A stretch of DNA of 25,377 nt. Origin: a virus. The stretch spans positions 64,001 through 89,377 of the IMG/VR virus record IMGVR_UViG_3300047462_000344; one strand, written 5' to 3'. This document shows, in pieces, positions 1,074 through 22,945 of the stretch. The number at the start of each line of letters is the position of its first letter. Within the stretch, counting starts at the first letter, position 1. A program made the position numbers and the translations under genes. Under the pieces are notes generated by a model, which did not search any database, was not told where the DNA came from, and saw only the letters and a program-made list of their open reading frames with translations.

Positions 1074-1664
1074 TCAACACGGTTCTATGCGCACAAATTT
1101 GAATTTCGGGAACGATCCGACGCATTCCGCGCCCAGCGCCAGCATTTCGGCATGCGTCCTGGTCCGCCCGCCCGCCTTACGCGCCACCATGCGGCCGTTG
1201 CGCACATAGACGCGCTCCGACTTGGTCAGGCCGACCGGCGTCCAGTTATCGCCCAGATAGATCGCGCCGGTATGGCCCCGCCATTGATCGGCATACGTGA
1301 CAAGTGCCGGCCAGATAATGCGGTTGATGAGCCGACGCGAGCGGGCCAGCAGAAACGTGCACGCGTTGCGCGGCACGCCGGGCGCGATGACGAGGCGGGA
1401 CAGCGCCAGCACGCCCTGCCACCTTGCGGGATAGGTCGCCTCCGCCGCCGACCTGGTTGGCGGTATCCACCACGCCACGCCGAGGCATTGCTCGTCGAAA
1501 ATATCGCCGGCCCGGAACAGGCCATGCAGATAGGTCGCGGTGTTCGACGCGCCGCGCGCGTAATGGTGCGCGACGACCAGCCGCCGCGCCACGTCGATCG
1601 CTACCGGCCGCACCTCATAATCCGCCCGTCGAAGACGCGCCTCCGGATGGCCCGATGCGCTCAT
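1074..1664 (-). CDS. Mom-like GNAT-fold protein, putative DNA base modification
   Basis: The 196-residue protein carries the pattern of the phage Mu Mom family: HHY (33-35), a variable Gly-rich loop, ALSRLV (87-92), an Asn (100), LVTYAD (121-126) and GHTGAIYLGDNW (130-141). Mom proteins have an acetyltransferase (GNAT) fold, and Mu Mom converts adenine to a methylcarbamoyl form that resists restriction. The same chemistry here is inference from fold and motif resemblance. ATG 1664 overlaps the stop of the upstream 26-residue ORF as ATGA, which fixes the start. A longer in-frame extension would run into the PAPS-reductase gene and is implausible. Third in a coupled PAPS-reductase / membrane peptide / Mom-like set. 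Mu controls mom through Com and Dam; no Com-like gene sits next to this one. Confidence 0.72.
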   Translation of the reverse strand: MSASGHPEARLRRADYEVRPVAIDVARRLVVAHHYARGASNTATYLHGLFRAGDIFDEQCLGVAWWIPPTRSAAEATYPARWQGVLALSRLVIAPGVPRNACTFLLARSRRLINRIIWPALVTYADQWRGHTGAIYLGDNWTPVGLTKSERVYVRNGRMVARKAGGRTRTHAEMLALGAECVGSFPKFKFVRIEPC

Positions 1665-1741
1665 GTGAAGCGCCGGCGCCCCCAAATGATCAGCGCGAGG
1701 GCGACGATGCACATCATGAGGACGCGCTGTTCCCAGGTCAT
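1661..1741 (-). CDS. 26-residue single-helix membrane peptide
   Basis: A tiny frame overlaps both neighbours by four bases: its ATG (1741-1739) overlaps the TGA of the PAPS-reductase gene, and its TGA (1663-1661) overlaps the ATG of the Mom-like gene. Two ATGA junctions around one short frame are strong evidence for translation by coupling. The peptide starts MTWEQRVLMMC, continues as a hydrophobic helix (IVALALIIW) and ends with a basic WGRRRFT tail. This fits one membrane span with the basic end inside the cell (positive-inside rule). No family is recognised. It could be a real small membrane protein, or mainly a coupler that carries ribosomes into the Mom-like gene. Confidence 0.6.
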   Translation of the reverse strand: MTWEQRVLMMCIVALALIIWGRRRFT

Positions 1742-2694
1742 TCGCACAACCCATACAAAGACGAGCACCCCGCCGGTTCGGCCTTTTCCGCCCAGGCGTC
1801 CAGCCCGTATTGCCGTCCCCCGCGCGTGGTGCGGGACCATTCCACGACGCGGCGGATATCCGCATACCCGTCCTTCTTGTCCGGATCGTCGCCATCCAGA
1901 GGGTCAGTGTCGCCGGCGAAAAACGTAGCCAGCCCCCGCTTGGAAACTGCCGCGACAATGCTTTCCCATTCCGCGATCTTATCTATGTGCTCTGGAAACC
2001 GCCGAGCGATCTGCCGCATTTCATTTTTGCCGCAGTCGATGCAGGGCATGCAGCCGACCCGCTTCATGCCGAGGCGATAGAGCGGATTCGGCGTCACACC
2101 GTTCTTGCGCAAATACGCAAATACGTCATCGGCCGACCAATGGCGGATCGGATACCATTTCATATTGCGCGGCAGATCATCCCGTCGATACAGCGGCGTG
2201 TCCGCCCGCCGCAGACTTTCGTCGCGCCGCACCCCAATCCATTGCAGCACAGGCCCGTTGCGCAGCGCCGGGCCTACAAGCTGGCGCATCGCGGGCAGGT
2301 ATTTCAGCTCCTCGGTGCAGAACCGGGCCTTGGTGGACGGAAACCGCCCCTTCATCATGCACAGGTCCAGGAACGGGTTGCCCGTGGGGTGCAGCAGGGC
2401 GATGGCGCGATCTACCGTCGCTTGCGGCACGCCTTTCGCCGGCCAGTGCTCGGCCATATATTTCCGCTTCCGCGCCATGTCCGCGGTGAAATCAGCCCGG
2501 AAGGTCTCGATCGGCGCGCCACCGATGCGGGCCTGCATCGTGGCGATGTGCTCCAGCGTCAGTTCATGCTCGTTGCCCGTGTCAAAAAACGCTGCGCGCC
2601 ACGCGCCGAGGCGATTACCCATCCGTGTCGCCATGACGTAGGTAGCTTCGCTATCCTTGCCGCCGGACACATTGACGATGTGCTGCACCGTCAC
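1738..2694 (-). CDS. Phosphoadenosine phosphosulfate (PAPS) reductase-family protein
   Basis: The product belongs to the PP-loop/PAPS-reductase superfamily. With GTG 2694 as start the protein is 318 residues and opens TVQHIVNVSGGKDS, placing the PP-loop SGGKDS at residues 10-15 as in many phage homologues. An ATG at 2730 would add 12 residues and overlap the previous gene. A C-terminal block VGCMPCIDCGKNEM gives a CxxCxxC cluster also seen in phage homologues. Cellular members reduce PAPS or activate sulfate; PP-loop relatives also modify nucleic acids. Phage copies have no settled function. The position beside the Mom-like gene, with two ATGA couplings between them, suggests a shared task such as DNA modification rather than sulfur assimilation. 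The family call is firm; the function is inferred. Confidence 0.85.
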   Translation of the reverse strand: MTVQHIVNVSGGKDSEATYVMATRMGNRLGAWRAAFFDTGNEHELTLEHIATMQARIGGAPIETFRADFTADMARKRKYMAEHWPAKGVPQATVDRAIALLHPTGNPFLDLCMMKGRFPSTKARFCTEELKYLPAMRQLVGPALRNGPVLQWIGVRRDESLRRADTPLYRRDDLPRNMKWYPIRHWSADDVFAYLRKNGVTPNPLYRLGMKRVGCMPCIDCGKNEMRQIARRFPEHIDKIAEWESIVAAVSKRGLATFFAGDTDPLDGDDPDKKDGYADIRRVVEWSRTTRGGRQYGLDAWAEKAEPAGCSSLYGLCE

Positions 2695-2696
2695 GA

Positions 2697-3029
2697 TCAG
2701 CCCCAGGCCTGCAGCGTCGCCTTGTCCCATTTCTGAACCGGCACCAGCACGGCTCGCGGCAACTGACGCCGGTAGCGATAGGCTATGCGGATCGCCGCGT
2801 TGCGCTGCGCCGGCGACAATTCGGCCGCCTCCTTTGCCGCAATCGCTTCCACGATCCTGGCCGCGGAACGGTTCATCCCGAAAGACACCGCCGGCGAGGT
2901 CAGGGCGCGAACCAGGGCGGATATCTCGGAATCTGGCAGGTCGAGCAGCACGGGTGCCTCAGCTTGCGCCTTCGCAACCACATGCGCCGGCATCACCATC
3001 AGCGGGAATAAATGCTGCATTCCGTCCAT
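2697..3029 (-). CDS. Hypothetical protein, 110 aa
   Basis: ATG 3029 is preceded by GAAGGTGA at good spacing, which decides this start even though it lies inside the 3' end of the gene above. The protein begins MDGMQHLFPLMVMPAHVV, then shows an acidic helix (PDSEISALVRAL), an Ala-rich helix and a basic C-terminus (IRIAYRYRRQLPRAV). No domain is recognised. It ends two bases before the GTG of the PAPS-reductase-like gene, so the two are probably co-translated. A helical, possibly nucleic-acid-binding protein would fit, but nothing proves it. Confidence 0.65.
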   Translation of the reverse strand: MDGMQHLFPLMVMPAHVVAKAQAEAPVLLDLPDSEISALVRALTSPAVSFGMNRSAARIVEAIAAKEAAELSPAQRNAAIRIAYRYRRQLPRAVLVPVQKWDKATLQAWG

Positions 3030-3262: not shown

Positions 3263-3654
3263 TGCCGCACCAAACGCACGCGCTGAAAGAGGTGCACGTT
3301 GAAGTTGCCGTCCAACTGCCTGTAGCGTCGGTGCGCCGTCTCGCCACATCCCTTCCCCGCGAACACCTCCGCAGGGTGCGAATCGTCATCATACCAGATC
3401 AGCCAAACCCCTTCCCCATCATCGGGCAGGTTCGGCGCCGCCGGCTTGAACTTGCCGGCCCGCACGAGCTGGACCAAAGCCGCATCCCGCTCCTCCGTGG
3501 TTTCATCAGCGATCCGCCGCAGATGCAGAAACGCCGCGCGCATTTTCTCGTAATCCAGCCGCGCCTTCCTCGCCTGGACGATCCAGAGGAACAGGACAGA
3601 CACCAGCAGGGCCAGCCAACGCCAATCGAAGGGCGGTATATCGATTGTTGCCAT
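3259..3654 (-). CDS. Membrane-anchored coiled-coil protein, 131 aa
   Basis: ATG 3654 overlaps the stop of the cupin gene by one base (TGATG), the likely coupled start; another ATG nine bases earlier (3663) is possible. One membrane helix (WLALLVSVLFLWIV) lies near the N-terminus. It is followed by a charged helix, probably a coiled coil (RKARLDYEKMRAAFLHLRR through ERDAALVQLV), then a C-terminal soluble part with a WLIWYDDD strand. This is a type of N-anchored phage protein with no assigned family that I can name. It may be attached to the inner membrane with its bulk in the cytoplasm or periplasm. Confidence 0.65.
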   Translation of the reverse strand: MATIDIPPFDWRWLALLVSVLFLWIVQARKARLDYEKMRAAFLHLRRIADETTEERDAALVQLVRAGKFKPAAPNLPDDGEGVWLIWYDDDSHPAEVFAGKGCGETAHRRYRQLDGNFNVHLFQRVRLVRH

Positions 3655-4169
3655 CAGTCGCACCCCCTGCCCACTTCGTTATGCTTCCCGCTTTTCCGCG
3701 AAAAGATTTTCCAGTGCACCCAACCCCGCGGGCAATGAAAACCCCATTCCCGCAGTTTTGGTCCCGTGATGAACAGGGTCCAGGCCTGCGTCTTGGCGCC
3801 CATCGGGCCGTCGAACAGCTCGATCCGGTGCGCATGGCGCGCGCCGCGCAGGATCACGGCCGGCGCGTGCAGCGTCCGGCGCCGGAATCCGCCGGCAGGG
3901 CCGCGGCCAGGCTCGACGAACGTCCACTCGAACATGCCGCCAGCGAACAGGAAGCTGATGCTGGGCCAGGGATGGTCATGCAGCGCCCGGTCGTCGTCGC
4001 TATTCATCCACTGGTGCAGATACACATTGCAGAACCGGTTTTTCGGCACGATGAACCAGCGGTTCCACTTCACCAGGGCAGGCGACCCGATGATTTCGTC
4101 CGGCTCCCGCGTATGCGCCGTCTCGGTGAGGTGCGCTACGACGCGTTTGGGTAGGGTGATGGTCAGCAT
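3654..4169 (-). CDS. Phage cupin-like protein, 171 aa
   Basis: The protein shows the pattern of small phage cupin-fold proteins: a YLHQWMNSDDDRALHDHPW block with clustered His/Asp, a FLFAGGMFEW strand, a second HAHRIEL strand, then WTLFITGPKLREWGFHC and a GWVHW motif. The HDH and HRI histidines are candidate metal ligands. Cupins bind metals or small molecules; no substrate can be named. ATG 4169 overlaps the DUF5131 stop by seven bases, and the longer upstream frame lies inside that gene and is not used. It is second in the operon from the promoter at about 5000. Pairing with DUF5131 hints at a joint metal-dependent step, which is inference. Confidence 0.75.
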   Translation of the reverse strand: MLTITLPKRVVAHLTETAHTREPDEIIGSPALVKWNRWFIVPKNRFCNVYLHQWMNSDDDRALHDHPWPSISFLFAGGMFEWTFVEPGRGPAGGFRRRTLHAPAVILRGARHAHRIELFDGPMGAKTQAWTLFITGPKLREWGFHCPRGWVHWKIFSRKSGKHNEVGRGCD

Positions 4170-4960
4170 GCAGGGAACTCCCGTATCATCAGATCGTCCG
4201 GGATGGCGTGGAGCTGCGCCTGCGTCCGGCCCGACATTTGTTTCATGAAGAATGCGGTGCCGGCGGCGGCACAGTGATCGCGCAGCGCGCGGGCCCAGTC
4301 CGGGTCCATCCATTGCGGTGTCCGCCCCGACCCCCCGCCGCATATCACCAAGGCAATGCCGTCGAGACATGGCTTGATCGGCTCCAGCAACGGCTCGGCG
4401 GAGAGAAAATGCACGGCCGCCGGCACAGCGACGAGAGGCCCCTGCCGCCGCTCACATTCGCGCTGGTCCTCCGCCGTGGCGCCAAGCCAGACATTCTCGG
4501 GATATTCACCATCCAGCCAGGCCACAATCCACTCGGACAGATCGCGCATACCCATGGCGCGCGCGTCGCGCATCAGGTCATGCAGCATCTGTTCGGTATT
4601 TTGCGGCCGTTTCGTCAGCAACTGCCATATCAGCAGCGGCGTGGTGCGGATGAGGTCGAGGAAATCGAGGCGCCACATCACTTCGATGCTGCGATGGTTG
4701 TCCCACGGATCGCACATCGAGGGAAACACCATGACGCATTCCTCGGCGCGCAGCGCGGCCCGGTTCCAGGCGAACGGCTTTTGCCAGTAATCGACCGAGG
4801 TGCGCGCACGCTTGCCGTGCGGCCCCCACCGATCGCCTTTCCCGAACCGCTTATCGAGTGCTTCCGCGTAACAGAAGCGACACGCTTCGGAAACGGACTG
4901 GCAGCCCGTCCAGGGTGACCACGTCTTATCCGTCCACTGAATGCCGGTTTTCTCAGCCAT
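4163..4960 (-). CDS. DUF5131 (phage Gp37/Gp68) family protein
   Basis: The 265-residue protein begins with the family hallmark TGIQWTDKTWSPWTGC (5-20), followed by SEACRFCYAE, giving Cys at 20, 27 and 30 in a pattern similar to a radical-SAM iron-sulfur site. Later family blocks are PLLIWQLLTKRP, the WLGATAEDQ segment, FLSAEPLLEPI, LVICGGGSGRTP and FFMKQM. Family members are common in phages and mobile elements and lack a proven activity; radical-SAM-like chemistry on DNA or nucleotides is often suspected. ATG 4960 follows an AGGTAGG ribosome site. It is the first gene after the palindromic promoter and leads the accessory operon. Confidence 0.88.
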   Translation of the reverse strand: MAEKTGIQWTDKTWSPWTGCQSVSEACRFCYAEALDKRFGKGDRWGPHGKRARTSVDYWQKPFAWNRAALRAEECVMVFPSMCDPWDNHRSIEVMWRLDFLDLIRTTPLLIWQLLTKRPQNTEQMLHDLMRDARAMGMRDLSEWIVAWLDGEYPENVWLGATAEDQRECERRQGPLVAVPAAVHFLSAEPLLEPIKPCLDGIALVICGGGSGRTPQWMDPDWARALRDHCAAAGTAFFMKQMSGRTQAQLHAIPDDLMIREFPAC

Positions 4961-5072: not shown

Positions 5073-6776
5073 TCAGTCCCATTCATCATCCTCTTCCGGC
5101 GGGGGCGGTTTGGGAATCACCTTCGCCAGTTCCGCCTCCGTAAAGTCCCATAGGGCCTGGCTGACCTGGGGTGGTTTCGCCATCACACCAACCCACGATC
5201 CGCGGCAGTTGTGCACCACGAAGCCGCCGGCCACGTAGCTTTCGTCTTCGGCCACAGCGAAATTATAGAGCTTGGCGTTCGTCACCTTGCGGCGCGTTAG
5301 TGCCACCACGTCGAGATGGCCAAACACGTACGCGCCGTCGTGGTTCATGGCCACGGAGCAGTATCGAACGTCCTGAAATTTGAGATTGATGAACGGCCGC
5401 TCGCACGTCGGGCAGACCTTGGCCAGCGCGGCGATCTTGTCGCCCACGACAAGCTGGCCAGACGGAACCCACCCACGCGCGGTCATGACGGGGTGTTCGC
5501 CCGTCGTGGCCGGAAGCGTCGCTTTGTTTCGACCGTTGAATGTAGCCCGGGCGCCATGCACGACGCCGGTATGGCTCACGCCTTTCAACACCCATGTGAC
5601 GGGCCGAAAATGCCCACGGTGCGTAAGCACCGAATCGCCGACAGCAATCTCCGAAATGGGTTTCCATCCACCCGAGGTGTAGATCGGGATATGCGCATCG
5701 ACGAAGCAATGGGGGTGCTGCACCCCGGCGGCGGGCCACCACAACTCGGCGGGATCCCGGGGGACAAGCCCGGCCGCGGTCCGCTTCATCGGGGCGGCGA
5801 ACCGGCCCACATTGGTTTTCCCCTCCCACACCTCGGTATCGCCGTCGGGGAAGGGTTTGGTCGGGCTGACCACGGTGAAAATCTTGCCGTTGATTCGGGC
5901 GCAGAACGGGCACGCGCCCCGGTACGCCTCCATGCGCTTTACCTGCTGGCCAGGATTGATGGTGGAGATGAACCCTTGGTTCATCGCCTCCCCACATTCC
6001 GTCACGGCGATGCGCCGGCAGTCCCGGTTGAACTGGCCGAAATTATCGAACAGCCTGGTTTTCAGCCGTTCCGGGCTGCCTTCGCGCTGGCCCAGCACCA
6101 TGGCCTGGACATGCTCCAGCACGATGCCCCGCATCCGGCCCTTCATCCCCTCCGTGGCCTGCGTCACGGCCGATGCGGCGCGGGCCCGGGCGATGCGCAC
6201 CGTGGCGATTTCAACCGGCGTCAGAACGCGCGGCGGCACGGCCGCGAAGGTCGTCGGCACGAATTCGGCCAGGGCATTCATCTGGTCCGGCCGCAGCGGC
6301 GTCGCCACGGACGCGGCCTGGATTTTGCCGAGCAGGGCAGCCCGCACCACCATGTATTCGGCTTCCGTCTGGATCACGCCGTCGGGCAGATACCGCTGCA
6401 CGATATATTCGGCGGCGAGGAGCCAGTCATCGAGGCTCCAGGCCTCATGCGGCTTGGCGCGGAGATATTTCACCACCTCCTCAAACCGCATCACATCCCA
6501 GCGATGCCAGGGTTCGGTATCCTCCGCCTTGCGCAGCTCGCCGATCGGTTCGCCGAGGAGGAGCCGGGCGAACGCGTCCTGTAGCTTTTGAATGATGGCC
6601 TGGAGCCGCCTCGTAACGGCCTCAACGTGGCCGGCTATCCACGGGTTTTCATGGCGCGACCAAATCGTATCGTCATGGGCACCAGGCTCGGCCAGCGCCT
6701 TGACCATGTCCTCCAGGCACCCCTCGCAGTGCTCCTCAGGCACGCCAGACAGATCGATCAGGGCCGGCCGGATCAT
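5073..6776 (-). CDS. MuF/SPP1 gp7-type head morphogenesis protein containing an intein
   Basis: This 567-residue precursor has a MuF (SPP1 gp7) minor head protein as extein. The family segment runs from about residue 240: RIAVTECGEAMNQGF, then EAYRGACPFCARINGKIFTV, then LWWPAAGVQHPH, continuing after the intein as CRGSWVGV. Joining the exteins restores the conserved HPxCRGxW motif. The intein is residues 357-523 and is described separately. The spliced protein would be about 400 residues. MuF proteins sit at the portal and assist head assembly or DNA delivery. ATG 6776 overlaps the previous stop (ATGA). Portal and zeta-domain genes lie directly upstream, the usual late order. The C-terminus is acidic and proline rich (PPPPEEDDEWD). 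Confidence 0.88.
   Translation of the reverse strand: MIRPALIDLSGVPEEHCEGCLEDMVKALAEPGAHDDTIWSRHENPWIAGHVEAVTRRLQAIIQKLQDAFARLLLGEPIGELRKAEDTEPWHRWDVMRFEEVVKYLRAKPHEAWSLDDWLLAAEYIVQRYLPDGVIQTEAEYMVVRAALLGKIQAASVATPLRPDQMNALAEFVPTTFAAVPPRVLTPVEIATVRIARARAASAVTQATEGMKGRMRGIVLEHVQAMVLGQREGSPERLKTRLFDNFGQFNRDCRRIAVTECGEAMNQGFISTINPGQQVKRMEAYRGACPFCARINGKIFTVVSPTKPFPDGDTEVWEGKTNVGRFAAPMKRTAAGLVPRDPAELWWPAAGVQHPHCFVDAHIPIYTSGGWKPISEIAVGDSVLTHRGHFRPVTWVLKGVSHTGVVHGARATFNGRNKATLPATTGEHPVMTARGWVPSGQLVVGDKIAALAKVCPTCERPFINLKFQDVRYCSVAMNHDGAYVFGHLDVVALTRRKVTNAKLYNFAVAEDESYVAGGFVVHNCRGSWVGVMAKPPQVSQALWDFTEAELAKVIPKPPPPEEDDEWD
5208..5708 (-). other. Mini-intein (167 aa, Hint fold) inside the MuF protein
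   Basis: The insert starts with Cys (codon at 5708) in CFVDAHIPIYTSGGWKPISE, followed by a GDSVLTHRGHFRPVTWV block typical of Hint N-terminal motifs. It has TGEHPVMT, which fits the conserved block-B His, then a KLYNFAVAEDESYVAGGFVV block, and ends in HN before Cys+1 of the C-extein. There is no LAGLIDADG endonuclease. Between the two Hint halves lies VCPTCERPFINLKFQDVRYC, a CxxC pair plus a further Cys resembling a zinc knuckle. The insertion splits the conserved HPxC motif of the head protein, so splicing should be needed for a functional product. Confidence 0.85.
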
Positions 6777-6874
6777 TTCCGAGTGTCGATCGCCTTGGCG
6801 AACAGGATCAGCGGTTCACCGCTGATGGTGTCTGGCGCTTGCGCGCCCGTGAAAACGATGCGCGCCGCAGCCAT
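6773..6874 (-). CDS. Possible separately started 33-residue ORF at the 3' end of the zeta frame
   Basis: Within the 3' end of the long zeta-domain frame, ATG 6874 is preceded by GAAGGGA at ideal spacing, much better than expected by chance. The frame encodes MAAARIVFTGAQAPDTISGE and ends ILFAKAIDTRK, with a stop that overlaps the MuF start as ATGA. The composition looks like real protein. It may be a separate small gene coupled to MuF, or simply the tail of the larger protein. Confidence 0.4.
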   Translation of the reverse strand: MAAARIVFTGAQAPDTISGEPLILFAKAIDTRK

Positions 6875-8803
6875 GTCGGTCCCTTCGGTTAGATTGCCGT
6901 CTCCGGCGCCTTCCGCCTTTTCCATGTCGCGCGCCGGTTCGTAGGCGCCTCGGTATCCGGGGGGGAACCCGCCGCTTCCATGCGTGCCCAGCGTGCGCGG
7001 ATATGGTCCGGTACCAGTTCGTCCCGGCCTGTCTCGATCAGCGGCCGGCAATCCTGATAGTCCGCGTTCTCCTCCGTCAGCTTCATTCTTCTTCTCCGAA
7101 ATCAGGCGAGGCTCAGCCCCCTTGGCGACATTATTGTCGCGGAATGACCAAGCGTCAACCATGGGTTTTATGGCGTCGAAATTGGCCTCGTTCGCGGTGT
7201 TCGACAAGATCACGGCTGGCGGCACGTACCGCTTCGTCTTCCCCAGGAAGCGGCCCACCGCCCGCTTCGCCTTCGTCTTCCCCAGGAAGCGGCCCACCGC
7301 CCGCTTCGCCGCTTCTTGTCTGGGTAGATGCATGTAGTGCGCTTCCACCCTGTATCCGGATTCCTTGAATTTTTTGACCAGTGCCGTCGCCTTGGCGCCG
7401 GTTTTCAGCGTCGCGTCATGCACGATATTCAAACCCGCTTTGTGGGCGATGCGGGTGATTTCGTCGAATATATCCCCCGATTCCTCGTGCACTTGGGCTG
7501 CGTTCCACCCCTTGTATTCGGGCAGCATCTGCTTGATTTCGTCGGCGTCCAGCACGATCGCCTTCGCGGGATCGTACACCTTACCGGCAAACCAACTCTT
7601 ACCAGACCCTCCGCGGCCACCCAGAATCGTGAATGTCGGCCTTTGACCCTTCGCAGGGGTGGCGGCGGCGACCGCCTTTTCGGACAGAATGTGTCCAACG
7701 ATTTTCTGGTGCAGTTTGACGCGTTCCGGCGTCCACTTCCCGTCTTTCTTATGAGCATCAATGGTCTGGTCGAGCTTGGCAATGTCGGCCTCGACGTCAC
7801 GTATCCTATCCGCCGTATCTGGCGGGAAAGACGCCAGAACCGATTCGGGAGATACCGCGGCATCATCGTGGCCCCTCGCAAAACTGGCTGCGGAGAACTG
7901 CTCGGGGTCCACCGGTCCTGTCGGCGCGGCCCCGCCGGGCGTTGCGGGCGGCGCTTCCGGCGGTGCGGCGGCCGGCACCGGCTCGCCTTCCGCGCCAGGC
8001 ACAGGGCCGGTGAGGTGTTCGTGCCGCACGGCCTGCTCGGTGCCATCTGGCTTGCGCAGCGTCACGCCATGCAGGCCGGAGGCGACGATATGCCCCTCCC
8101 CCTGGACCAAGCCATGCTGATACCCAACCTTGTCGCCATGCTTCATCGGCGAGCCTGGCCCGCCCGTCGTCGGGTTTTCCGGCGTCGGCTTTTGCTCCCC
8201 GGGCACTCCCTTGTCAGTCCGCTCCCATCGCTTCGTCTGGTGGCCGAGCTTGTCCGTCACAGGTTCCAGCGCCAGACCGGGCCGGTTCGCTATGCCGCCG
8301 GCGCCCGCTGCCGCATCCGCCTTGAAGAACATGGCGCGTGCCAGGACAGGCATGCGGGGCGGCGGCGCATCCAGGTCGGCCAGGACGGCACCCAGCGCCT
8401 TGCGCATCTCCTTCAACCCGCCGAGCAGCGGATCGTCGGTTTTCCGATCGGGCAGGTTCGGCGAGCCTTCATAGTCCTGGGCGGCCGTGACGTAGGTCTC
8501 GCCGGCGCCACCCTTCCCCTCTTTCTCGACCGTGGCGAGGTAGCGGGTCGCGCCGGTATGGTCCCGCACCAGCATGCCGTCGGCGCCGGTGTCGAGCACG
8601 TCAACACCACGATCGACCCGGGCTTTGTGGCCCAGATAGGACGCGGTGGGGAAGCCATGCGCGGTCTTCCCGTCATGGCCCATGAACCCGTCCTTACCCT
8701 TCGCCACGACCCGCACCGCGACGGGTCCGCGCTCGGGATGCGTCGCAAAGACATGGTCCCCGATTTCGATGCCGGAGCCGGCCTGCTTATCCTTGGCACC
8801 CAT
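6773..8803 (-). CDS. Head-associated protein with zeta-toxin kinase domain
   Basis: The 676-residue frame has an SH3-like N-terminal segment (IEIGDHVFATHPERGPVAVR), a second similar segment near 222-266 (KHGDKVGYQHG ... HEHLTG), a Pro/Ala-rich linker (270-300), a helical stretch and a zeta-type P-loop kinase domain from about 385 to 570. Walker A is GGRGGSGKS (395-403), followed by VLDADEIKQMLPEY and a VHDATLKTG strand. Zeta toxins phosphorylate UDP-N-acetylglucosamine; phage head-linked versions have no proven substrate. There is no epsilon antitoxin gene beside it, and it sits between portal and MuF, so a virion or delivery role is more likely than a toxin-antitoxin pair. The start overlaps the portal stop (TGATG). 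A 13-residue tandem duplication lies at 499-524, and the tail after residue 572 conflicts with a better coding frame. Confidence 0.8.
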   Translation of the reverse strand: MGAKDKQAGSGIEIGDHVFATHPERGPVAVRVVAKGKDGFMGHDGKTAHGFPTASYLGHKARVDRGVDVLDTGADGMLVRDHTGATRYLATVEKEGKGGAGETYVTAAQDYEGSPNLPDRKTDDPLLGGLKEMRKALGAVLADLDAPPPRMPVLARAMFFKADAAAGAGGIANRPGLALEPVTDKLGHQTKRWERTDKGVPGEQKPTPENPTTGGPGSPMKHGDKVGYQHGLVQGEGHIVASGLHGVTLRKPDGTEQAVRHEHLTGPVPGAEGEPVPAAAPPEAPPATPGGAAPTGPVDPEQFSAASFARGHDDAAVSPESVLASFPPDTADRIRDVEADIAKLDQTIDAHKKDGKWTPERVKLHQKIVGHILSEKAVAAATPAKGQRPTFTILGGRGGSGKSWFAGKVYDPAKAIVLDADEIKQMLPEYKGWNAAQVHEESGDIFDEITRIAHKAGLNIVHDATLKTGAKATALVKKFKESGYRVEAHYMHLPRQEAAKRAVGRFLGKTKAKRAVGRFLGKTKRYVPPAVILSNTANEANFDAIKPMVDAWSFRDNNVAKGAEPRLISEKKNEADGGERGLSGLPAADRDRPGRTGTGPYPRTLGTHGSGGFPPGYRGAYEPARDMEKAEGAGDGNLTEGTDMAAARIVFTGAQAPDTISGEPLILFAKAIDTRK
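6889..7086 (-). CDS. 65-residue ORF nested in the 3' end of the zeta gene
   Basis: ATG 7086 follows a purine-rich GAGAAGAAGA. The protein begins MKLTEENADYQDCRPLIETG and continues with a charged helix (DELVPDHIRARWARMEA). Over the first 20 codons, third positions are G or C in 17 of 20 in this frame, but in only 7 of 20 codons of the overlapping zeta frame, so this is the better coding frame there. It ends 14 bases before the next ATG. Its last 20 residues, after a run of seven Cs, look less natural. No family is recognised. Confidence 0.5.
   Translation of the reverse strand: MKLTEENADYQDCRPLIETGRDELVPDHIRARWARMEAAGSPPDTEAPTNRRATWKRRKAPETAI
7232..7309 (-). repeat. 39-bp perfect tandem duplication in the zeta gene
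   Basis: Two identical 39-base units (7232-7270 and 7271-7309) repeat the 13 residues AKRAVGRFLGKTK. The length keeps the frame. Perfect identity, including silent positions, points to a recent event, or to an assembly artefact. Confidence 0.95.
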
Positions 8804-20013: not shown

Positions 20014-20580
20014 TCACAAATTCGGGGTAAATTTCTCCGTGTCATTCCCCCACGCCTCCCAACCAGGCGCACGTGCCCGCGCGAACAGCTCCAGGTATGG
20101 GCCGCGGAACTGCTTCTCAATGTTATCCCGCATCTCATCAGGCTTGCGCGAATGCTCCCGCACCGGCGCCACGATCAGGTTGCGGATGGACTTGCTAAGG
20201 TATTCGGGCTTGCCAATCGTCCCGAGCAGGAACAGTTCGGCGGCCGAGCGGTAGCAATAACCTGGCCCGAATGCCCATTTCTGCCCCGTGGTAGTTTGTT
20301 TCGCCCAGGTGCCGCCTGACTTATAGGTGAATCCCCACGCCGCCATCGTGGCCAAGGCCTGGGGCAGCATAGGGAAGGTGGCCCACATCACACATACAGC
20401 GTCGCGCTGGCAGAGCTGCGACACGGGCAGCGCCTGGATATCGGCCAGTTCCATGCAGGGGTAGTGGCTGACCGGGTTCTTCCCCTCGCCCTTCGCCGAT
20501 CGGTTCTTAAAATACCACGGGGGATCGGCCAGGATCGTCGCGAAGGAAAGCGGGGGCAGGTCGCCGAACGGCCAGTCCAT
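20014..20580 (-). CDS. MT-A70 family adenine methyltransferase
   Basis: The 188-residue protein begins MDWPFGDLPPLSFATILADPPW; the DPPW motif (19-22) is the catalytic motif of MT-A70 N6-adenine methyltransferases. The AVCVMWATFPMLPQAL and AAWGFTYKSGGTWAKQ blocks, RSAAELFLLGTIGKP and REHSRKPDEM follow in family order. It would transfer a methyl group from S-adenosylmethionine to adenine, most likely in DNA. ATG 20580 lies seven bases after the previous stop. No restriction enzyme gene is adjacent, so it is an orphan methyltransferase that may protect phage DNA. Confidence 0.9.
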   Translation of the reverse strand: MDWPFGDLPPLSFATILADPPWYFKNRSAKGEGKNPVSHYPCMELADIQALPVSQLCQRDAVCVMWATFPMLPQALATMAAWGFTYKSGGTWAKQTTTGQKWAFGPGYCYRSAAELFLLGTIGKPEYLSKSIRNLIVAPVREHSRKPDEMRDNIEKQFRGPYLELFARARAPGWEAWGNDTEKFTPNL

Positions 20581-20587
20581 CGCGCCC

Positions 20588-21163
20588 TCAGTGCATCGTA
20601 TGCTGCGGCGCCGGCTTGGCACCACCACCAAGCGCCTCGGGCAGTGTGCCAGCGGCCCGATCGGTGATCAGCCGTTCCGTCATGGCGAGGATGCATTCCG
20701 CCAGCGCACAACCAGCATCGCGCAGCGCATCGTCATCAGACCCGAATTGCGAAGCCAGATACGGCACCACGCCGCCGGCCAAGCACGCCACCGCCGCCCC
20801 GGCCATCATGCCATCCAGAGATTTTTCGCAGGCGTTTCGGATCACAGTGGCCCGCTGGCCCAAATCCTCCAGCGATATCTGGGGATGGTTGTTTTCTGTC
20901 GAAAACCGACTGCCGAACGCCTTCATGTTGTTCCAGAACTGCATGTCGAAGAGCAGTATGAAATGGCGTGCCTTATCGTTTGCCTCCCGCCGCGTCGCCG
21001 ATTTCTGCACCGCCAGAGCGGCCACACCAGCCGCCATGGCCATGAGCACGGATACCATGCAGCCGTCATCTTTCAGATATGGCAGAACGATGTCGTTCAT
21101 GATGCGCATACCGATTTCTTGCGATTCCTTGTCGCAGTCGTGGGCAGCCGCTTCGTCCGTCAT
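20588..21163 (-). CDS. Hypothetical protein with two hydrophobic segments, 191 aa
   Basis: ATG 21163 overlaps the previous stop (ATGA) and has AAAGGA upstream. The N-terminus is acidic and Cys/His containing (MTDEAAAHDCDKESQEIG). Two stretches could cross a membrane: CMVSVLMAMAAGVAALAV and MMAGAAVACLAGGVVPYLA. Between them lies a polar helical part (FILLFDMQFWNNMKAFGSR). It resembles Ala/Gly-rich regions of small gene 22577-22945 in style (both have a Met-rich helix and end polar) but no homology is claimed. Function unknown. Confidence 0.6.
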   Translation of the reverse strand: MTDEAAAHDCDKESQEIGMRIMNDIVLPYLKDDGCMVSVLMAMAAGVAALAVQKSATRREANDKARHFILLFDMQFWNNMKAFGSRFSTENNHPQISLEDLGQRATVIRNACEKSLDGMMAGAAVACLAGGVVPYLASQFGSDDDALRDAGCALAECILAMTERLITDRAAGTLPEALGGGAKPAPQHTMH

Positions 21164-22185
21164 GTCGTGTCCTTTCTCTCTCGTTTTGGTGGTAAATTCT
21201 TCCCGCGTTGCATGCCGTGCCCGATGAACGCGATGGGCTGGCCCACCATTTCGGGCGACCAGCACAACGCGCACGTCACGCACGCCGCCGTGGCGCCGTT
21301 TTCGTTGGGACAGATCAAGCCCTCAGGCTGTATCCCGCGCGCCCCGGGCCGCTCCCATATCGTGGTGGCCTGCCACCCCGCCGCCGCCTCCTCAGGCGAG
21401 ACAGAGAACCTGACGACCCAGCGCGACCGGTATTTCATGTTGAGCCGGCGCACCTCCGCCCCGATCGCGCTATCACGCGGCCAGGCTGTGTAGCCCCAGA
21501 CATGCAGGCGGGGGTGGCGCAGCAGCAGCCTCTCCCAGAACCCGACATAATCCGGTGAATAGAAATCCCCCAGTATGTGCAGCCGCACCGCGATGCCGGC
21601 CCGGTTACGCCGCGACGCGAGCAGTTCGTCGATCTCCCACGCAACAGCCGCTTCCAGTGCCGGCCCGTGCCTGTATCGCTCCGGGGCCGGCATGGCGTTG
21701 CCGTAACACTCGCGGAGCAGCGGGCACGCCGCAGGGCATGTCGCGCGCTCCTCCAGGGTCAGGGTATAGACGTGCAGCCCGCGCCACGGCCCCTTTTCGA
21801 TCAGGTCGCCTATCTTGGCTTGGTGAAACCCACGTTTCAGGACGCGATCGGCTTGCGCGGGATCCTTGACCCGGGTGGGGAACAAGGTGCGGGATTCCGT
21901 GATCGCGGGATGGTGCGCCGGCAACGCCGCCAGGGCACGCACCGCATGATTGATGCGGGATGCGAACCTGGACCGCGTCCCGCCGCAGTCTCGATCGGCG
22001 CCGCCGAAAACGAACTTATTGCCGGCGCCGTTTACCTTGCGTGGACGCCCCCGCTTTCGCGGCACCTCCCCCTGGCCCACATGCTGCGAGACCAACCCAG
22101 AGGCGCGCTCAGGGACGCGGGTAACGCCGCGCGTGGCGATGAAGCGGGCGACCAAATCATCGATGTCGCCCGCCCCGCCGTCCAT
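21160..22185 (-). CDS. GP88-like phage protein with cysteine cluster
   Basis: ATG 22185 overlaps the MarR-type gene stop by one base (TGATG); the longer frame upstream is the shadow of that gene. The 341-residue product has a basic AT-hook-like patch RKRGRPRK (43-50), then VYTLTLEERATCPAACPLLR and ECYGNAMP, giving Cys 150, 154 and 160. It continues RLHILGDFYSPDYVGFWERL, HVWGYTAWPRDSAIG and a C-terminal CVTCALCWSPEMVG. This order matches the phage gene product 88 family. The C..C..CYxxAx motif parallels DUF5131 at 4163-4960. The activity is unknown; DNA binding through the AT-hook is inferred. Confidence 0.75.
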   Translation of the reverse strand: MDGGAGDIDDLVARFIATRGVTRVPERASGLVSQHVGQGEVPRKRGRPRKVNGAGNKFVFGGADRDCGGTRSRFASRINHAVRALAALPAHHPAITESRTLFPTRVKDPAQADRVLKRGFHQAKIGDLIEKGPWRGLHVYTLTLEERATCPAACPLLRECYGNAMPAPERYRHGPALEAAVAWEIDELLASRRNRAGIAVRLHILGDFYSPDYVGFWERLLLRHPRLHVWGYTAWPRDSAIGAEVRRLNMKYRSRWVVRFSVSPEEAAAGWQATTIWERPGARGIQPEGLICPNENGATAACVTCALCWSPEMVGQPIAFIGHGMQRGKNLPPKRERKDTT

Positions 22186-22580
22186 CACGCCGCCTCGGCT
22201 ACCGGTGCGGTTGCCGCCACCCGTTTCAGTGACGCCACCGCCACACCTTCCAGCAGCTTCGTGCCAGCCGGCCGGATTGAGACCAGTACGGACCGCTGAT
22301 CGTCCGGGTCCCGCTTGCGCACGACCAAGTCGAACTCGGAGAGCCGATCGACCGCCCTGGTGATGGCGGGCTTGTTCAGTTGCAGCGCCGCCGCCATGCC
22401 GCGGATCGTGTCGGTCTGTTCCGCGACGCGCAGCAGCACCGCGAGTTGGCGCAGCGACACATCCTCTTTCACCGAAGCGGCGAGGTGACGCACCGCGCCG
22501 ACCAGGGCGGCGAGGTCTCCAGCCACAATGGCTTGGGCCGCCTGGGCTGCCTGAGCAGCCTTCTTCGCCGGGGCGCTCAT
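22185..22580 (-). CDS. MarR-type winged-helix transcription regulator
   Basis: The 131-residue protein has an Ala/Gln-rich N-terminus, then a MarR-like winged helix: LRQLAVLLRVAEQTDTIRGM, AAALQLNKPAITRAVDRLSE (recognition helix), and a wing LVVRKRDPDDQRSVLVSIRP ending TKLLEGV. MarR proteins bind palindromic operators as dimers. ATG 22580 overlaps the preceding stop (ATGA). In a phage operon it may set early/late balance. The palindromes at 4994 and 11036 are possible targets, but nothing in the sequence proves it. Confidence 0.85.
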   Translation of the reverse strand: MSAPAKKAAQAAQAAQAIVAGDLAALVGAVRHLAASVKEDVSLRQLAVLLRVAEQTDTIRGMAAALQLNKPAITRAVDRLSEFDLVVRKRDPDDQRSVLVSIRPAGTKLLEGVAVASLKRVAATAPVAEAA

Positions 22581-22945
22581 GCCCGGCTCGCCGCTGGGGT
22601 GCCCAGCAATTCCCCACCAGGCGTTTCCGCCCGGCAGAGTGTTTCAGTGTCTCGTATCAACATACCAAAAGCCTCCATGATAAAGGGTGCATCAGCCGCT
22701 TCCATCGTTGCCAGGACGTATCCGAGCATCTGGGTTGCGATGACAGTCATCTCGCAGGTTCCAAGGCCGAGACCGTTGATTGCGGCCAAGCCTTGTTCTA
22801 CCTGGATATCGTTCGCGTTCGTTACAAGTGTATTTCGTGCGATCACACCTCCTTTAGTTACATTTTTCAGGCCATCCGCCCGGGCGAGCGCATCACGCTC
22901 CGCCCGGGCGGCCGCCGCATAGCCAGTGTCGGTTTTCTCAACCAC
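22577..22945 (-). CDS. Hypothetical protein, 122 aa
   Basis: GTG 22945 lies four bases after the DUF2303 stop and is the first usable start not inside that gene. The protein is acidic, with EKTDTGYAAAARAERDAL, then NDIQVEQGLAAINGLGL and a Met-rich helical region (MTVIATQMLGYVLATMEAAD and FIMEAFGMLI). The helix might pack in a membrane or a core. No family is recognised. Its stop is coupled to the MarR-type gene. Confidence 0.65.
   Translation of the reverse strand: MVEKTDTGYAAAARAERDALARADGLKNVTKGGVIARNTLVTNANDIQVEQGLAAINGLGLGTCEMTVIATQMLGYVLATMEAADAPFIMEAFGMLIRDTETLCRAETPGGELLGTPAASRA

Follow-up and report, generated by a model that had tools for sequence, protein, structure and literature searches.

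The closest described counterpart of the locus studied here is the Mom system of phage Mu. As described in passages of the two sources cited, Mom acylates adenine at N6 (PMC7824862) and Mom modification shields phage DNA against restriction (PMC6483171); the latter source also describes the mom start as kept in an inhibitory RNA structure, which is opened by Com. Two further groups of proteins are relevant. The phage family phrog_424 includes gp30 of Stenotrophomonas phage S1 and Orf84 of phage 186, and the PP-loop proteins DndC, SspD and BrxP belong to phosphorothioation and BREX systems.

We analysed a stretch of 25,377 nt (the window) from an uncultured phage, which spans positions 64001-89377 of a virus record 89,377 bases long. 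Three adjacent minus-strand genes were examined: a 318-aa PP-loop protein with a PAPS-reductase domain and a GTG start (2694-1738, hereafter PAPSR-like), a 26-codon ORF predicted to encode a single-span hydrophobic peptide (1741-1661) and a 196-aa Mom-family protein with a GNAT fold, a putative DNA adenine-modification enzyme (1664-1074). An earlier sequence-only reading had described the three genes as coupled by two ATGA overlaps. The ORFs, their strand and both 4-bp ATGA junctions (PAPSR-like/peptide and peptide/Mom) were confirmed in the sequence. A gene for a hypothetical protein of 110 aa without Pfam or PHROG match (2697-3029, minus strand) ends only 2 nt from the PAPSR-like start, and the packed block therefore comprises at least four genes. 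The listed minus-strand gene pairs of the window include three more ATGA overlaps and, in a loose test, an ATGA overlap with some upstream ORF of at least 40 codons was present in 39 of 109 distinct Mom loci. Since such overlaps are common both in the window and at other Mom loci, they do not mark out one system. No match to window bases 1-25000 was obtained by megablast against 50,697 phage records, and portal relatives were recovered from just 2 loci, with 51% and 30% identity.

The product of 1074-1664 is a genuine Mom-family GNAT protein. It matched PF25680 with 66.3 bits (E 4e-18), above the curated cut-off of 27.1 bits, and phrog_1384 with an E value of 7.7e-24. Mu Mom (8bv8) was retrieved from the PDB with the single sequence (E 3.3e-5) and with a 28-sequence Mom profile (E 6.5e-12). 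The AlphaFold model (pLDDT 92.7) placed 8bv8 at rank 1 in Foldseek (E 6e-12, TM 0.69) and at the top in VIA (Z 17.5 over 179 residues, rmsd 3.3 Å), where the next entry, a GNAT protein, reached Z 14.1. Thus, in the comparison with Mu Mom that the sequence-only reading had proposed, the solved Mu structure is the best fold match, and its description of the protein as a Mom-like GNAT is upheld by Pfam, PHROG, the PDB sequence match and the predicted fold alike.

At the residue level, R90, N100 and D126 are invariant among Mom relatives. T103 aligns with S124 of Mu Mom, the residue mutated in the inactive S124A structure; this mapping is our own, taken from an alignment with a 9-residue numbering offset. 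The position is occupied by S or T in 28/28 relatives (T in 12, S in 16), and we accepted T103 in place of the serine because the two residues alternate there. The protein therefore resembles Mu Mom in its GNAT fold, in its full-length match and in keeping the S124 position as T103. It differs by its low identity to the Mu protein (about 18-20%) and by its placement after a hydrophobic 26-codon ORF. The translational activator Mu Com (PF10122) had no match in the record, in a search run without positive control. By analogy with the chemistry and protection described for Mu, the phage Mom most likely modifies adenine in phage DNA and blocks restriction: adenine would be momylated and host restriction enzymes would fail to cut. 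In Mu, the product is carbamoylmethyl-adenine. The sequence-only reading had suggested an unusual adenine or sulfur-based modification. Membership in the Mom family makes the adenine part likely, whereas no evidence for a sulfur-based one was obtained.

The 26-aa peptide MTWEQRVLMMCIVALALIIWGRRRFT encoded at 1661-1741 has a best 15-residue Kyte-Doolittle mean of 2.79. This value was matched neither by the window's 115 small ORFs of 20-40 aa, a count which excluded the peptide's own frame (59 aa from its first start codon), nor in any of 20 mononucleotide shuffles. A membrane peptide is therefore plausible; the probable product is a small peptide with a single membrane span, expressed through translational coupling. 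Neither Pfam nor PHROG gave a match, and the best NCBIfam score was 13.2 bits, below the cut-off of 27, in agreement with the earlier description of a membrane peptide with no known counterpart. A hydrophobic short frame (15-residue mean of at least 2.5) ending just upstream of Mom was found in 4 of 109 distinct Mom loci, the window included; these four peptides were unlike one another by eye, and no clear counterpart was present 5′ of the other Mom genes in this set. Separately, five loci (L178, L186, L187, L204 and L243) carry a similar short ORF with a hydrophobic N-terminus which ends 46 bases before the Mom match begins.

The PAPSR-like protein (1738-2694) carries a PF01507 domain (89.8 bits, E 2.7e-25, cut-off 22.5) and, as judged by its match to phrog_424 over residues 4-317 (E 6.9e-62), is a full-length member of this widespread phage family. 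It is 50% identical to S1 gp30 over 318 residues and shares its PP loop and cysteine pattern with the family; the difference lies in the surroundings, where Mom adjoins the gene here and DNA methylases are found nearby in S1 and Agrobacterium phage Rivra instead. The PP loop SGGKDS was present in 10/10 aligned relatives and in 88/88 PAPSR-like sequences; SGGKDS was itself part of one scan pattern, which makes the larger count partly circular and leaves the 10-sequence alignment as the less biased set. Cys 126, 215 and 218 were found in 88/88 sequences and Cys 112, 310 and 317 in 87. The CxxCxxC cluster noted in the sequence-only reading is present as C215, C218 and C221, but its third cysteine, C221, is not conserved (65/88).

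The solved CysH (6vpu) has SSSFG where this protein has SGGKDS. This ATP-type loop differs from the altered one found in true PAPS reductases, which suggests that ‘PAPS reductase’ is probably a misleading name. Scores also fell far under the curated cut-offs of the set covering CysH and APS reductases: 58.9 bits against 154 for NF002537 (phosphoadenylyl-sulfate reductase), 46.2 against 165.1 for TIGR00434 and 55 against 235.3 for TIGR02055. The predicted structure was of fair quality (pLDDT 73.6). It shares the overall PP-loop fold with CysH and APS reductases. In the PDB, PAPS/APS reductases and ATP sulfurylase were matched at similar strength (Z 14.4-15.7): the ATP sulfurylase subunit 1zun, at Z 15.5, tied with the reductases (CysH and APS types, Z about 15). 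We conclude that the protein is probably a PP-loop enzyme which uses ATP and bears a cysteine cluster; our best guess is that it performs a nucleic-acid modification step.

Likeness to DndC, SspD and BrxP is restricted to the PP-loop core. Partial HMM matches to these proteins scored 29.9-61.5 bits over about 80-137 residues only, and the DndC model TIGR03183 gave 29.1 bits, far below its cut-off of 290.4. No partner of the DndD, DndE, SspB or SspC type was named among the matches listed for 10 scanned proteins. These results lend no support to the sulfur-based DNA modification raised in the sequence-only reading.

We then asked how often Mom and the PAPSR-like gene occur together. In a close set of 30 Mom relatives, the nearest ones found in viral contigs, a PAPSR-like gene was present on one contig only (L014, which is the same contig as L002), about 2 kb from Mom and on the opposite strand; the remaining 29 Mom loci of the set had none. 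The gene preceding Mom differed in most of the neighbourhoods shown, with repeats in a few near-identical contigs. At the level of whole records, PF01507 was detected in 1 of 29 Mom records and PF25680 in 0 of 50 PAPSR records; in the positive control of the PF25680 search, Mom was found in 10/10 known Mom records, this phage included. In a broader comparison, the PAPSR-like HMM matched in 3 of 119 Mom loci found by a DNA pattern (1.0 Mb) versus 1 of 88 random viral loci, sampled with an arbitrary 14-mer (0.75 Mb); one of the three positives, L227, resembles L014 and may be the same contig. A scan of genome_contigs for Mom returned only 5 loci, one of them (L131) with a PAPSR-like gene, and of the 5 loci obtained with a second Mom seed alignment, at least two lay on contigs found before. 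By tblastn, Mom matched 154 of the 50,697 phage records and the PAPSR-like protein 51.

Several individual pairs were nevertheless found against this low background. L131, a contig from a Bacillota MAG, has a PP-loop/PAPS_reduct gene of 430 aa (864-2156) immediately upstream of a Mom gene (2277-2906) that shares its strand. In L190 a PAPSR-like gene lies about 0.7 kb upstream of Mom on the same strand; L202 has such a gene 4.8 kb from Mom. For Psychrobacter phage Y8A, PMC10434257 gives PAPSR at 1959-2720 and Mom at 39393-40157 of 40226, as separate entries; the two would be about 2 kb apart if that record were closed into a circle. No description of a Mom/PAPS-reductase cassette as a unit was found in searches of the open-access PMC literature. 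The pairing thus recurs but rarely, at a rate which is not distinguishable from background, although a modest enrichment may exist (3/119 against 1/88).

Other arrangements were noted at Mom loci. In L014 (4051-6703), Mom overlaps by 4 bp with an ORF on either side; these two flanking ORFs, neither of which matches PHROG, look like a large terminase split into its ATPase and nuclease parts. A radical SAM gene (phrog_9298) follows Mom on two MAG contigs (L130, 1117-2097; L132, 1418-2341), and L157 and L197 each contain two Mom-like genes.

A different association emerged for the PAPSR-like family. C5 methylases (PF00145 over cut-off) were present in 20 of the 50 PAPSR records searched, out of 87 loci (L005-L011 and L050-L129). 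In 14 of these 20 records the methylase gene was within 1.5 kb of the PAPSR gene, versus 2.1 expected by random placement, a statistic which ignores kinship among partly related phages. With a methylase HMM built from two methylases of PAPSR loci, a C5 methylase was found within 1 kb in 13 of the 87 loci, in all 13 on the same strand; the corresponding controls (0/88 and 3/119) are biased because the seeds came from PAPSR loci, and we therefore rely on PF00145. MT-A70 was found in 3 of the 50 records. The phage studied here has a C5 methylase of its own (G000, 32939-33217), about 33 kb from the cassette. The linkage may reflect a DNA-modification function or a shared insertion hotspot. As a separate observation, at least one of these methylases, that of L125, reads SPDC at the motif which is usually PPC.

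The sequence-only reading had also listed MT-A70, DUF5131 and GP88-like genes elsewhere in the window, and Pfam confirmed all three domains, each on the minus strand. The MT-A70 DNA methyltransferase (20014-20631) matched PF05063 (E 9.6e-25) and phrog_359 (E 1.9e-70), and its start is probably inside the listed ORF. The GP88-like domain (PF17338, E 3.8e-7; phrog_2554, E 1.9e-23) occupies the C-terminal half of an ORF at 21160-22617, for which the listed start is provisional. The DUF5131 protein (4163-4960; PF07505, E 9e-60) also matches the PADLOC candidate defence models PDC-M41B and PDC-M30B. Near the cassette, 3654-4370 (minus strand) matches phrog_4786, annotated as cysteine dioxygenase (E 2e-43). 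On the same strand, a head-protein-like ORF (5073-6776) seems by eye to contain a small intein, with an insert running from CFVDAHIPIY to VVHN before CRGSW, and a kinase/ATPase-like ORF (6773-8803) carries an exact short tandem repeat, KRAVGRFLGKTK, in two copies.

The reading that we consider likely treats the genes of the locus as accessory genes independent of one another, packed head to tail in a long minus-strand array, with Mom as the functional core and the PAPSR-like gene as separate cargo. The ATGA overlaps would then reflect tight phage gene packing and not one pathway. How the 26-codon ORF fits into this array may be seen differently: it could be a leader which brings ribosomes to the Mom start and yields no functional peptide. 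ATGA at both of its ends, a Mom start inside a predicted hairpin and the Com-controlled mom start of Mu, as reported in part of PMC6483171, are all consistent with such a leader. We regard it as possible but doubtful, given a peptide hydrophobicity above that of every other small ORF tested and a hairpin not stronger than those of shuffled sequences (z -0.29 and 0.70). As the folds were no stabler than shuffles, a Mu-like RNA hairpin lock on the Mom start was rejected as well. For the PAPSR-like family, one could propose a DNA-modification enzyme which works with C5 methylases elsewhere and lies beside Mom here through a shared placement of modification genes. The frequency, proximity and common strand of the C5 methylases, the methylase carried by this phage and the partial matches to SspD, BrxP and DndC point in this direction. 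However, the HMM controls are biased by their seeds, related phages are not independent, the phage's own methylase is distant, and early accessory genes cluster anyway: in Burkholderia prophages, according to part of PMC2920897, a PAPS reductase gene sits at an insertion hotspot where related prophages have other morons. We hold this explanation to be unlikely.

A true assimilatory PAPS reductase, acting as an AMG that boosts host cysteine synthesis, seems quite improbable. The PF01507 domain and top fold matches of the model which include CysH and APS reductases would suit it, and phage papers label such genes sulfate-reduction AMGs or morons (in parts of PMC10434257, PMC8879888 and PMC9144972). 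It is opposed by the SGGKDS loop, by the wide margin under every CysH/APS-reductase cut-off, by the tie with ATP sulfurylase and by a passage of PMC5463345 according to which these enzymes have not been linked to phage metabolism in any study. The sequence-only reading had favoured a joint system, in which the PP-loop protein and Mom would together produce a single hypermodified adenine, which perhaps contains sulfur, and the peptide would act as a partner. The two ATGA overlaps suggest it, as do the cases in which a PAPSR-like gene adjoins Mom or lies in its vicinity (L131, L190, L202, L014 and phage Y8A). We judge it very improbable, since the pairing shows no clear excess over random viral loci and is nearly absent from both the close set and the record-level searches, the latter with a working positive control. 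Mu Mom is not known to require a PP-loop protein. A joint or a sulfur-based modification is thus not supported. An extended version gives the PAPSR-like family an ATP-dependent sulfur-transfer or adenylating activity on DNA bases, with C5 methylases as usual partners and Mom as an occasional one; this phage, L131 and Y8A would form a rare Mom-linked branch building a new, possibly sulfur-bearing hypermodified adenine. To this we give the slenderest chance of all.

Under the preferred reading of independent accessory genes, the PAPSR-like protein would be a cargo gene moving on its own and working without Mom, and the outcome is a new member of the Mom family with other phage cargo next to it. 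A well-supported Mom is thereby added to an uncultured phage, while a tempting three-gene system loses support. Beyond this locus, a common phage family annotated as a sulfur-assimilation AMG does not have the PP loop seen in PAPS reductases, and its genes cluster with those for C5 DNA methylases; the loop mismatch and this clustering bring the ‘cysH AMG’ claims for the family into question. The clustering with C5 methylases is a testable lead, and a more useful one than the cassette itself.
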